The translations under genes were made by a program, and so were the position numbers. 64,000 nucleotides of DNA from Streptomyces sp. NBC_00285 (lineage in GTDB: Bacteria > Actinomycetota > Actinomycetes > Streptomycetales > Streptomycetaceae), in NCBI RefSeq assembly GCF_036174265.1, contig NZ_CP108055.1, positions 2,542,001 to 2,606,000 on the forward strand, in the 5' to 3' direction. Position 1 is the stretch's first letter. The number at the start of each line of letters is the position of its first letter. The notes beneath the pieces are model-generated. The model did not search any database, was not told the origin of the DNA, and was given only the letters and a program-made list of their open reading frames with translations. Below are positions 22,558-34,159 of this stretch, piece after piece.

Positions 22558-23370
22558 CTACTCGCCGACGCCGGCCAGGTCCCGCAGCCGGCGCGTCTGA
22601 GCCGCTCGCTCGGCGCCGCGCTGCTCGTCGTAGGTGCGGTCCTGGGCGCCCCGCAGCAGCGCCTTGGTCTCGATGACGGCGTCGCGGGGGGCGGACAGGA
22701 GCGCGGCCGTCAGGTCCCGTACGGCGCCGTCGAGCCGGTCCAGGGGGACGGCGATGTTGGCGAGGCCGGTGCTCACCGCCTCCTCGGCCGTGACGAAGCG
22801 CCCGGTGGCGCAGATCTCCAGCGCCCGGGCGTAACCGACGAGGCCCACCAGGGGGTGGGTGCCGGTGAGGTCGGGGACCAGGCCGAGGCTGGTCTCGCGC
22901 ATGGCGAACTGCACGTCGTCGGCGACGACGCGCAGGTCACAGGCGAGGGCGAGCTGGAAGCCCGCCCCGATGGCATACCCCTGTACTGCGGCGATGGACA
23001 CGACGTCACTGCGCCGCCACCAGGTGAAGCCTTCCTGGAACTCCGCGATGGCGGCGTCGATCTCGGCGTCACCACTGCGGGCGAGCTCGATGAACGACGG
23101 CTCGCCCTCGATCCCCTCCGGCGTGAACATCTGCCGGTCGAGCCCCGCGGAGAAGGACTTGCCTTCACCGCGCAGCACCACCACACGGACGGAGCCCGGC
23201 ACGAGCCGACCCGCCTCGGCGAGCGCTCGCCACAGAGCGGGGCTCTGCGCGTTGCGCTTGGCCGGGTTGGTCAGCGTCACCGTGGCGAGGGAGTCCTCGA
23301 CGGTGAGCCTCACGCCGTCCTTGTCGAGCAGGGGAACGAGTTCCTGGCCATCCTGAGTGGACGTAGCCAT
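22558..23370 (-). CDS. Enoyl-CoA hydratase/isomerase family protein
   Basis: This 270-residue crotonase-fold protein has the family elements SLATVTLTNPAKRNAQS (residues about 28-44), VVVLRGEGKSFSAGLDRQMF (oxyanion-hole strand), and VQGYAIGAGFQLALACDLRVVADD near residues 130-153. Crotonases hydrate or isomerise acyl-CoA double bonds. The Glu of the AGxxGxGxE-type site is unclear, so the exact reaction is open. It is monocistronic with a convergent partner 4 bp away. Confidence 0.88.
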   Translation of the reverse strand: MATSTQDGQELVPLLDKDGVRLTVEDSLATVTLTNPAKRNAQSPALWRALAEAGRLVPGSVRVVVLRGEGKSFSAGLDRQMFTPEGIEGEPSFIELARSGDAEIDAAIAEFQEGFTWWRRSDVVSIAAVQGYAIGAGFQLALACDLRVVADDVQFAMRETSLGLVPDLTGTHPLVGLVGYARALEICATGRFVTAEEAVSTGLANIAVPLDRLDGAVRDLTAALLSAPRDAVIETKALLRGAQDRTYDEQRGAERAAQTRRLRDLAGVGE

Positions 23371-23486: not shown

Positions 23487-23708
23487 TCAGGACGATGCGG
23501 CCTTCTTGCCCCGCGTCGCTCCGCCACGCCCACGAAGCGTGACGCCCGATTCGCTGAGCATCCGATGCACGAAGCCATACGAGCGGCCGGTTTCTTCGGC
23601 CAGCGCCCGAATGCTCGCACCGGAGTCGTACTTCTTCTTCAGGTCTGCCGCGAGCTTGTCACGCGCGGCGCCGGTTACCCGGCTGCCCTTCTTCAGAGTC
23701 TCGGCCAC
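23487..23708 (-). CDS. gbn: Gbn-like GATC-binding nucleoid-associated protein
   Basis: This 73-residue basic protein has a helix-turn-helix at about residues 30-55 (SIRALAEETGRSYGFVHRMLSESG) flanked by Lys/Arg-rich ends. Length, sequence and synteny match S. coelicolor Gbn (SCO1839, recalled from memory), a nucleoid-associated protein that binds GATC motifs and affects development. GTG 23708 is chosen because GAGGAGG lies about 5 nt upstream; starting at 23753 would add 15 unlikely residues. The upstream region carries inverted repeats and a dense GATC cluster, listed separately. Confidence 0.85.
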   Translation of the reverse strand: MAETLKKGSRVTGAARDKLAADLKKKYDSGASIRALAEETGRSYGFVHRMLSESGVTLRGRGGATRGKKAASS

Positions 23709-23832
23709 CCGTGCCTCCTCATAGGAAGTGCGCTCTGGTCCCCTCATGATCACCCCTCCAGGCGTTCATGGCCACCCATTCGGCAAGGTCCGTAAGACCT
23801 GGTTTTGACGACAGGAGCGAGTCCCCACATAC

Positions 23833-23874
23833 GGAATCTGTGATTCCACACAGCCGCGTTCGTACCCCCGAACG
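23833..23874. promoter_or_regulatory. Two adjacent inverted repeats upstream of gbn
   Basis: GGAATC-TGT-GATTCC (23833-23847) and CGTTCG-TACCCC-CGAACG (23857-23874) are perfect inverted repeats 9 bp apart, about 125-165 bp upstream of the gbn start. Their position suits regulator binding. The second is not an SOS box: LexA boxes have CGAAC on the left and GTTCG on the right. Confidence 0.4.
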
Positions 23875-23910
23875 GGTTATATCGTGAAGTCCCAGGTCAG
23901 AGACGTGCGA

Positions 23911-23943
23911 CGGCCGGGCCCTTGTCGATAAAGGGCCCGGCCG
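23911..23943 (-). terminator. Terminator of the ABC-F gene
   Basis: CGGCCGGGCCCTT (23911-23923) and AAGGGCCCGGCCG (23931-23943) form a perfect 13-bp stem with a 7-nt loop, 113 bp after the ABC-F stop on the minus strand. The AA/TT at the loop end is typical of Streptomyces terminators, and a U-run is lacking. Confidence 0.85.
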
Positions 23944-23977
23944 CGAAATGGATGTAGGACACACCTCGGTACGAGGA

Positions 23978-24057
23978 GATCTCACACAGATGATGGATCA
24001 CGGATCGGCCGAATGATCCATACGCCGTGGATCACCCCGTGGATCACGCTTTCGATC
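23978..24057. promoter_or_regulatory. Cluster of seven GATC sites upstream of gbn
   Basis: GATC occurs at 23978, 23996, 24003, 24015, 24030, 24042 and 24054, with the unit GTGGATCAC repeated at 24028-24036 and 24040-24048. The last site overlaps the ABC-F stop region. Since Gbn binds GATC, this looks like a high-affinity site that could serve autoregulation. Binding is inferred, not shown. Confidence 0.5.
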
Positions 24058-25654
24058 AGGCCAGGGCGACCAGATCCGCGTAGTCGGCACCCCACAGGTC
24101 CTCGACGCCGTCGGGGAGCAGGATGATCCGCTCCGGCTGGAGCGCCTCGACGGCGCCCTCGTCGTGGGTCACCAGGACGACCGCGCCCTTGTAGGTGCGC
24201 AGCGCGCCGAGGATCTCCTCGCGGCTGGCCGGGTCGAGGTTGTTGGTGGGCTCGTCGAGGAGCAGGACGTTCGCCGAGGAGACGACCAGGGTGGCGAGCG
24301 CCAGCCGGGTCTTCTCGCCGCCGGAGAGGACACCGGCCGGCTTGTCGACGTCGTCGCCGGAGAACAGGAACGAGCCGAGCGTCTTGCGCACCTCGACGAG
24401 GTCGAGGTCGGGGGCCGCCGACCGCATGTTCTCCAGGACCGTGCGCTCGGGGTCGAGGGTCTCGTGCTCCTGGGCGTAGTAGCCGAGCTTGAGACCGTGG
24501 CCGGGGACGACGGCGCCCGTGTCCGGCTGCTCGGTCCCGGCGAGCAGGCGCAGCAGGGTCGTCTTGCCCGCGCCGTTGAGACCCAGGATGACCACGCGCG
24601 AGCCCTTGTCGATCGCCAGGTCGACGTCGGTGAAGATCTCCAGCGAGCCGTACGACTTCGACAGGCCCTCCGCCATCAGCGGGGTCTTCCCGCAGGGGGC
24701 GGGCTCGGGGAAGCGCAGCTTGGCCACCTTGTCCTGCTGGCGCACCGCGTCGAGGCCCGCGAGCAGCCGGTCGGCGCGCTTGGCCATGTTCTGCGCGGCG
24801 ACGGTCTTGGTGGCCTTGGCGCGCATCTTGTCGGCCTGCGAGTGCAGGGCGGCGGCCTTCTTCTCGGCGTTCTGCCGCTCGCGCTTGCGGCGCTTCTCGT
24901 CCGCCTCGCGCTGCTGCTGGTAGAGCTTCCAGCCCATGTTGTAGACGTCGATCTGGGCCCGGTTGGCGTCCAGGTAGAAGACCTTGTTGACGACCGTCTC
25001 GACCAGGTCGACGTCGTGGGAGATCACGATGAAACCGCCGCGGTACGTCTTGAGGTAGTCGCGCAGCCAGATGATCGAGTCGGCGTCGAGGTGGTTGGTC
25101 GGCTCGTCGAGGAGCAGCGTGTCGGCGTCGGAGAAGAGGATCCGGGCCAGTTCGATACGGCGGCGCTGACCACCGGAGAGGGTGTGCAGGGGCTGGCCCA
25201 GCACCCGGTCGGGGAGGTTCAGCGCGGCGGCGATGGTGGAGGCCTCGGCCTCGGCGGAGTATCCGCCCTTGGTGAGGAACTCCGTCTCCTGGCGCTCGTA
25301 CTGCCGCAGCGCCTTCTCCTGGGTGGCACCGCTGCCGTTGGCGATGCGCTGCTCGTTGTCGCGCATCTTCTTCAGCAGTACGTCGAGTCCGCGCGCGGAG
25401 AGGATGCGGTCCCGGGCGAGTACGTCGAGGTCGCCGGTGCGGGGGTCCTGGGGAAGGTAACCGACCTCGCCGGACCGGGTGATCTGGCCCGCGGCGGGGA
25501 TGCCCTGGCCTGCGAGGCACTTGGTCAGGGTGGTCTTCCCCGCGCCGTTGCGGCCGACCAGGCCGATGCGGTCGCCCTTGGCGACCCGGAAGGTGGCGGA
25601 CTCGATGAGGACTCGGGCGCCGGCGCGCAGCTCGATACCGGTGGCGGAGATCAC
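24056..25654 (-). CDS. ABC-F family ATPase (ribosome-associated)
   Basis: This 532-residue soluble protein has two nucleotide-binding domains and no membrane helices. Domain 1 has GLVGRNGAGKTTLTK, LSGGQRRRIELAR and LLLDEPTNHLD. Domain 2 has VILGLNGAGKTTLLRLL, LSGGEKTRLALATL and LLLDEPTNNLD. The linker (about residues 235-310) is long, basic and helical, as in translation factors of the EttA/Uup/resistance types. These act at the ribosomal E site, and some confer antibiotic resistance. The ATG has GGAG about 10 nt upstream. A leader ORF and hairpin precede it. Confidence 0.92.
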   Translation of the reverse strand: MISATGIELRAGARVLIESATFRVAKGDRIGLVGRNGAGKTTLTKCLAGQGIPAAGQITRSGEVGYLPQDPRTGDLDVLARDRILSARGLDVLLKKMRDNEQRIANGSGATQEKALRQYERQETEFLTKGGYSAEAEASTIAAALNLPDRVLGQPLHTLSGGQRRRIELARILFSDADTLLLDEPTNHLDADSIIWLRDYLKTYRGGFIVISHDVDLVETVVNKVFYLDANRAQIDVYNMGWKLYQQQREADEKRRKRERQNAEKKAAALHSQADKMRAKATKTVAAQNMAKRADRLLAGLDAVRQQDKVAKLRFPEPAPCGKTPLMAEGLSKSYGSLEIFTDVDLAIDKGSRVVILGLNGAGKTTLLRLLAGTEQPDTGAVVPGHGLKLGYYAQEHETLDPERTVLENMRSAAPDLDLVEVRKTLGSFLFSGDDVDKPAGVLSGGEKTRLALATLVVSSANVLLLDEPTNNLDPASREEILGALRTYKGAVVLVTHDEGAVEALQPERIILLPDGVEDLWGADYADLVALA

Positions 25655-33974: not shown

Positions 33975-34115
33975 AGTTGACTGCCGTTCGGGTGCGTGGT
34001 GGACTGCCGGAGCCATGTACGACGGCAGCAGAGGAAGCCGGTGCAAGTCCGGCGCGGTCCCGCCACTGTGACCGGGGTAGGTAGCCCCGGGAGCCAGGAA
34101 CTCTCGCCGTCGGTC
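33975..34115 (+). ncRNA. Cobalamin (AdoCbl) riboswitch
   Basis: The conserved core is read at 34030-34071: AGAGGAAGCCGGTGCAAGTC, then CGGTCCCGCCACTGTGA, followed by the paired GAGCCAGGAACTC (34091-34103). CTGCCGT (33981-33987) pairs with ACGGCAG (34022-34028) as an early stem. These match the B12 riboswitch consensus. It controls the cobalamin operon: high AdoCbl should lower expression. A short hairpin, CAGGG (34125-34129) with CCCTG (34138-34142), just before a Shine-Dalgarno sequence suggests translational control. Confidence 0.93.
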
Positions 34116-34159
34116 TCGTCGAACCAGGGCGTGGACACCCTGAGTGAGGACATATCGCG

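Follow-up and report, generated by a model that had tools for sequence, protein, structure and literature searches.

Helically phased conserved elements upstream of gbn in Streptomyces point to a probable autoregulatory nucleoprotein complex with a GATC cluster as its distal part

Three conserved elements (E1, E2, and E3) upstream of gbn, the gene of the nucleoid protein Gbn, lie at distances that differ between genomes in steps of about 11 bp. We consider that a helically phased autoregulatory nucleoprotein complex controls gbn, with E1, the conserved core of a dense GATC cluster, as its distal element, and assign this reading a probability of about 55%. The complex would most likely be repressive, and a loop is a likely but unproven form of it. 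Coordinates are given in Table 1; the window is the whole 64-kb stretch of DNA that was analyzed.

Table 1. Features around gbn in the window and the basis on which each was assigned.
Feature	Position	Strand	Basis or remark
Crotonase-type gene	22558-23370	-	Same strand as ABC-F gene and gbn
gbn, 73-aa HTH_58 protein, GTG start	23487-23708	-	PF19575, E 3.6e-33; S. coelicolor SCO1839
E3, promoter-like block GGACCTTGCC-GAATGGGTGGCC-...-GGGGTGATCATGAG, proximal GATC 23748-23751	23743-23791	-	Conservation; putative promoter role
AtrA-like palindrome GGAATCACAGATTCC	23833-23847	.	GGAA-N7-TTCC in 113/155 loci
E2, TCTGACCTGGGACTTC, element GACCWG	23885-23900	-	Conserved block; quantised distances to E1 and E3
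14-bp hairpin, candidate ABC-F terminator	23910-23944	-	Folding, region z -3.65
GATC cluster	23978-24057	.	Seven GATCs counted in sequence
E1, 39-bp core GGATCATTCGGC-N5-G-N-TGATCC-N-TCATCTG-N-GTGAG, anchor GATC 24015-24018	23981-24019	-	Conservation, pattern scan
1.9 copies of 12-bp GATC unit, variable outer array	24025-24047	.	Repeat copies; copy number differs among species
ABC-F ATPase gene, stop codon overlapping last GATC	24056-25654	-	Upstream of gbn in 153/153 loci

According to Du et al. (2022; PMC9239103), the nucleoid protein Gbn binds GATC, with a preference for GATCWT. In S. coelicolor, ChIP enriched gbn itself 67.75- and 58.18-fold with the summit at -326/-324, and Gbn shifted a gbn fragment from -561 to -239 holding eight GATCs in EMSA (PMC9239103). 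Binding at the position of the cluster is therefore not new. The earlier note on this DNA took the cluster for a Gbn site beside the protein's own gene, which is supported and, for S. coelicolor, was already published (PMC9239103). The strings 'autoregul' and 'SCO1840' are absent from the main text of that article. Among the titles and opening parts of abstracts found in open-licence PMC articles for Gbn, SCO1839, autoregulation, and phasing in promoter evolution, none described the spacing of the elements. The conservation of E1, the promoter-proximal GATCAT, and the quantised spacing of E1, E2, and E3 are apparently new, as we did not find them in print.

A gbn homologue was found in 120 of 121 Streptomyces genomes and in all 101 genomes drawn from the family. 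It is a short actinobacterial HTH_58 protein (PF19575) encoded next to an ABC-F gene; the gene order was scored in 151 family loci plus two from other families, with both genes on the same strand. The match of the adjacent gene to S. coelicolor Gbn, as the earlier note had it, was borne out by this domain assignment. A longer gbn ORF of 88 aa would start at 23753. Coding was rejected as the source of the conservation just upstream of gbn, and with it the 88-aa start, because one-base length differences between species break the frame upstream of codon 16. In the 400 bp before the match, 20 weaker HTH_58 loci (paralogues) carried between one and six GATCs, and a seven-site cluster was not found in these pieces. 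The Gbn ORF (23487-23753, minus strand) also matched NCBIfam NF040595 (Cbp1, CRISPR-repeat-binding) at 2e-08, far under the cut-off. Cbp1 is an archaeal protein, and the match perhaps reflects a shared HTH type.

The seven GATCs of the cluster start at 23978, 23996, 24003, 24015, 24030, 24042, and 24054, and GTGGATCAC is present twice, at the 24030 and 24042 sites. The count and the doubled sequence agree with what was first noticed, and the density is non-random. The expectation of about 0.2 GATCs per 80 bp given at that time was naive. With 365 GATCs, the window averages about 0.46 per 80 bp, and its dinucleotide shuffles, with 261, about 0.33; the enrichment itself stands. GATC is over-represented throughout the window, as none of 100 shuffles reached 365. 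Seven per 80 bp is the window maximum, the next separate cluster having five. The 151 orthologous loci gave 301 flanking pieces with a GATC; the highest counts per 80 bp among these were five, in a single piece, and four, in five pieces. GATC density in these loci was 15.0/kb in the intergenic regions vs 4.8/kb in the flanks. The cluster lies 270-349 nt upstream of the start of the 73-aa gbn. As its last GATC overlaps the ABC-F stop codon, it comprises the 3' end and 3' UTR of the ABC-F gene. All seven sites have the GATC core of a Gbn site; by inspection, one of them (24015, GATCAT on the minus strand) has the preferred form GATCWT, which the proximal site of E3 (GATCAT) also has.

The E1 anchor GATCATTC was kept in 148 of the 151 family loci collected first (140 from Streptomyces and 11 from other genera). 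It was absent from L102, where the match was the second GATC of the core, from L103, where the stretch was masked, and from L120. Only 5 of 20 additional loci of other genera had it. The total was 153 of 171 family loci, and 15 of the 18 loci without it belonged to these 20. Relative to the anchor as first matched in 149 loci (L102 included), a GATC followed after 19 bp in 139 and preceded it by 15 bp in 108; positions -27, +37, and +12 were occupied in 44, 53, and 20 of 149 loci, respectively. The conserved -325 GATC of many species lies at about the published ChIP summit, an assignment made by homology because S. coelicolor was absent from the named loci. Non-conservation of GATC positions between species had been named as an outcome that would speak against the suggested roles of the cluster, and the core positions proved to be conserved genus-wide.

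The full 39-bp core pattern occurred in at least 120 records among the matches listed (116 Streptomyces, 2 Streptantibioticus, 1 Actinacidiphila, and 1 unassigned). Of these listed matches, 112 lay in front of gbn and on its strand; the remaining eight came from stored pieces that end within about 250 bp of the pattern's start and do not include gbn. GATC spacing by itself was rejected as a unique signature: GATC triples with gaps of 3-33 bp occurred 2,297 times per strand in the source genome, the 15/19 spacing occurred three times, and GATCATTCGGC had three exact matches, so only the full core is diagnostic. Outside the core, the outer GATC sites shifted in steps near 12 bp between loci. L019 has an expanded outer array upstream of gbn, with six GATCs at 11-12 bp spacing from -396 to -337, beyond the core.

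On the gbn side, the proximal GATCAT (GGGTGATCATG) was found at about -43 in all 171 family loci. TGGCC lay 23 bp before it in 169 of them, and a GAATGGGTGGCC-like block lay 30 bp before the proximal GATC in all 149 loci where the block was found. A pair of blocks at a constant, promoter-size distance, of which the second borders on GATCAT, resembles a core promoter whose start is covered by a Gbn site. The GATCAT is conserved and its spacing is promoter-like, the promoter itself being predicted from the sequence; promoter and terminator consensus scans gave no match.

Outside the family, 163 genomes had a match, and 62 loci were drawn from the better-scoring ones among them. GATCWT was present between -100 and -15, counted from the codon that aligns with the gbn start, in 56 of the 62 loci, covering 25 of 26 families, compared with 7.6% of 1,860 control windows. 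The six loci without it were L172, L173, L197, L200, L204, and L206. The proximal site was sense-oriented in 51 outside loci, with a consensus near ATGRCT immediately before it, and T(A/G)GC(C/G) stood exactly 23 bp before the sense-oriented site in 29 of the 51 loci, representing 12 families; other offsets were found in at most six loci. The pattern TRGCS-N18-GATCATG was uninformative as a genome-wide probe, giving several matches per genome (147 genomes of the order). Some outside loci have GATC sets of their own before gbn: L153 and L161-L166 (family code f17; in L161-L166, sites 22 and 44 bp apart among others), most f18 loci (L191-L195 and L211; 44 and 12 bp apart), and f19 loci (L184-L187, L209, and L210; 38 bp apart). 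The multiples of 11 bp in the f17 and f18 sets are suggestive.

Between E1 and E3 lie E2, a palindrome, and a hairpin. In 111 of 155 loci, the palindrome precedes the proximal GATC by exactly 96 bp. It resembles published AtrA sites (PMC4457907), an AtrA site has been predicted in the S. coelicolor gbn promoter (PMC9239103), and the palindrome may carry a developmental input. The segment between E1 and E2 had a median folding z of -2.53 in 149 loci, with z < -2 in 89. The 14-bp hairpin has no T-rich tail after it; it is a more ordinary candidate for the ABC-F terminator than the cluster. An Rfam scan of the window gave one match only, away from the cluster, a cobalamin riboswitch at 33982-34123 (plus strand, 48.4 bits).

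The distances between the three elements fell into discrete classes. Two of 155 loci were excluded as false anchors, L102 (second core GATC) and L232 (inside the ABC-F gene), leaving 153 true ones. In these, the distance from anchor to proximal GATC was 264-269 bp in 97, 276-280 bp in 31, and 287-293 bp in 20. The odd distances were 219 (L144), 243 (two loci), 255, and 313 bp; L144, in which no GACCWG was found, is off the spacing classes. E2 divided the interval in 149 loci, that is, 155 minus four without GACCWG (including L102 and L232) and minus L228 and L236. In the latter two an earlier chance GACCWG occurred, and the next GACCWG gives 132/129 and 130/127 bp. The E1-E2 distance was 118-121 bp in 98 loci, 129-134 bp in 50, and 142 bp in 1, and the E2-E3 distance was 95-96 bp in 3, 116-119 bp in 128, 127-130 bp in 17, and 150 bp in 1; nothing fell between these classes. 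The class steps were 11.2 bp (E1-E2) and 10.9 bp (E2-E3). The total E1-E3 distance fits a period of about 12 bp best, and this was rejected as a true repeat: since the steps are about 11 bp after the split at E2, we read the 12 bp as two summed intervals, each with 1-2 bp scatter. With the exception of L144 and the odd distances, the elements are spaced by whole helical turns, as a phase-dependent loop would have them. Spacing confined to whole turns of roughly 11 bp is characteristic of proteins that need fixed DNA faces.

The classes were also found in a larger sample. Among 392 Streptomyces genomes, including 256 further ones, the E1-E3 distance was 264-294 bp in 355, with none at 270-275 bp and none at 281-286 bp; 37 genomes had no match within 264-294 bp. 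In a tree built with FastTree from ABC-F coding DNA, the class changed at least 11 times for E1-E2 and at least 4 times for E2-E3. All 18 reconstructed changes of at least 3 bp were within 9-13, 20-24, or 31-35 bp, vs 40 of 106 changes in the neighbouring interval between the ABC-F stop and E1 (Fisher p 2e-7). These size windows were chosen post hoc, the parsimony cost and the tree are simple, and the analysis lowers the influence of shared ancestry without eliminating it. In a stricter set restricted to exact GATCATTCGG (n = 144 with E2), 18 of 19 changes were phased, the other being one of 3 bp, vs 42 of 100 (p 1e-5). The two empty valleys in the 256 further genomes are a firmer test than the reconstructed changes.

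These data bear on whether the classes reflect shared ancestry only, a few clades having inherited a few lengths. The genomes are related and one class holds most loci, the commonest E1-E3 distance, 267 bp, accounting for 61 of 155. The repeated class changes on the tree, the adjoining interval that changes by all sizes on the same tree, and the intervening sequence, which is largely unlike between clades (27 loci by eye; low alignment column identity), all argue against it, and we regard this explanation as very improbable.

They bear equally on a role for the cluster at the ABC-F gene, where bound Gbn would block read-through or shape the 3' end of the mRNA. The cluster shares bases with the ABC-F stop codon and is followed by a strong hairpin, and silencing of ABC-F read-through was an early suggestion. 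The distance from ABC-F stop to E1, however, drifts freely (10-280 nt in 148 strict loci), whereas the gbn-side distances are quantised, and the separate hairpin is the likelier terminator. Silencing is unsupported because it leaves unexplained why the spacing to the gbn promoter block is locked in helical turns; we give such a role hardly any credence. A titration sink or high-density Gbn loading platform, in which only the number of sites counts, is improbable too. It would suit the variable outer sites (2 to 12 intergenic GATCs in the 151 family loci) and the binding of several Gbn molecules to multi-site DNA in vitro (PMC9239103), but fixed core-site offsets and a quantised promoter distance are not expected of a sink.

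We therefore return to the phased autoregulatory complex. Gbn would occupy E1, where binding has been published for S. coelicolor, and presumably E3. The GATCAT of E3 immediately follows a -10-like sequence and probably covers the transcription start, and Gbn bound there would hinder RNA polymerase. As E1, E2, and E3 are on fixed helix faces, their proteins most likely act as one complex. The approximately 270 bp between E1 and E3 would be folded or looped, probably with the aid of HU (HupA/HupS) and at least one E2-binding protein, and the outcome would be self-limited expression of gbn. In a hupA hupS double mutant, gbn RNA was raised (log2 fold change 1.75 and 1.31; PMC11472566), as expected if HU helps a repressive fold; the effect on gbn may be indirect. 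The earlier proposal that the cluster may be autoregulatory gains support from the conserved proximal GATCAT and the phased spacing.

Several observations count against phased autoregulation. In tethered particle motion, gbn-promoter DNA with Gbn alone showed slight stiffening and no shortening or looping (PMC9239103); as this speaks against a loop made by Gbn alone, we commit to the phased complex and keep the loop as its likely but still putative form. On the early suggestion that the cluster is a nucleation site, these data offer no more than the slight stiffening. In the gbn mutant, 9.5% of genes with strong promoter binding changed vs 6.9% overall, and Table 1 of the article lists no value for gbn itself (PMC9239103). 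The single GATCWT among seven sites, the 18 of 171 loci without E1, and L144 are to be added. A phase-locked three-element repression loop, with Gbn at the distal array and the start site and closed by HU and the E2 protein, is held tentatively, at clearly less than even odds. If that loop reading is true, a nucleoid protein would sense its own level, and perhaps supercoiling, via helical phase.

Because E2 contains no GATC, the phasing cannot be due to Gbn by itself, and another protein is needed. Other proteins (the E2 factor, AtrA, or RNA polymerase partners) might even build the phased complex, with Gbn barely affecting its own gene. This fits an E2 phased to both neighbours, a conserved core that reaches beyond the GATCs, an AtrA-like palindrome at a fixed place, and a mutant in which most Gbn targets are hardly altered (PMC9239103). 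On the other hand, no part of E1 or E3 is more constant than its GATC columns, and GATCWT is kept beside gbn even in families in which we saw no E1 core. We consider a complex nearly independent of Gbn rather unlikely.

Helical phasing is usually inferred from engineered spacers in a single strain. Here, hundreds of genomes provide a natural series, in which the sequence between the elements turns over while its length shifts by about 11 bp at a time. Natural variation thereby yields an estimate of the helical repeat of Streptomyces DNA in vivo, and the phased E2 points to a further regulator that binds there. The series also opens to direct testing how a small nucleoid protein with little effect on most of its targets might regulate its own abundance. 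We know of no comparable spacing series across a genus.

Fis and H-NS are self-regulated nucleoid proteins with several of their own sites upstream of their own genes. Gbn differs from them in protein family and motif. A close known case is S. coelicolor Gbn at its own promoter, with the same gene, the same place (summit -326/-324), and the GATC motif (PMC9239103); the conservation of the array, a proximal GATCAT at the putative start site, and phased spacing were not found in the passages of that study that were consulted. The E. coli lac loop is alike in that function depends on the helical phase between distant sites (PMC1762422). Unlike lac, the gbn loop is putative, Gbn is a small single-HTH protein, three elements are involved, and the phase is deduced from evolutionary variation instead of engineered spacers. 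Fits to lac repression in vivo gave 11.08 and 11.60 bp per helical turn (PMC1762422), close to the gbn steps of 10.9-11.2 bp.
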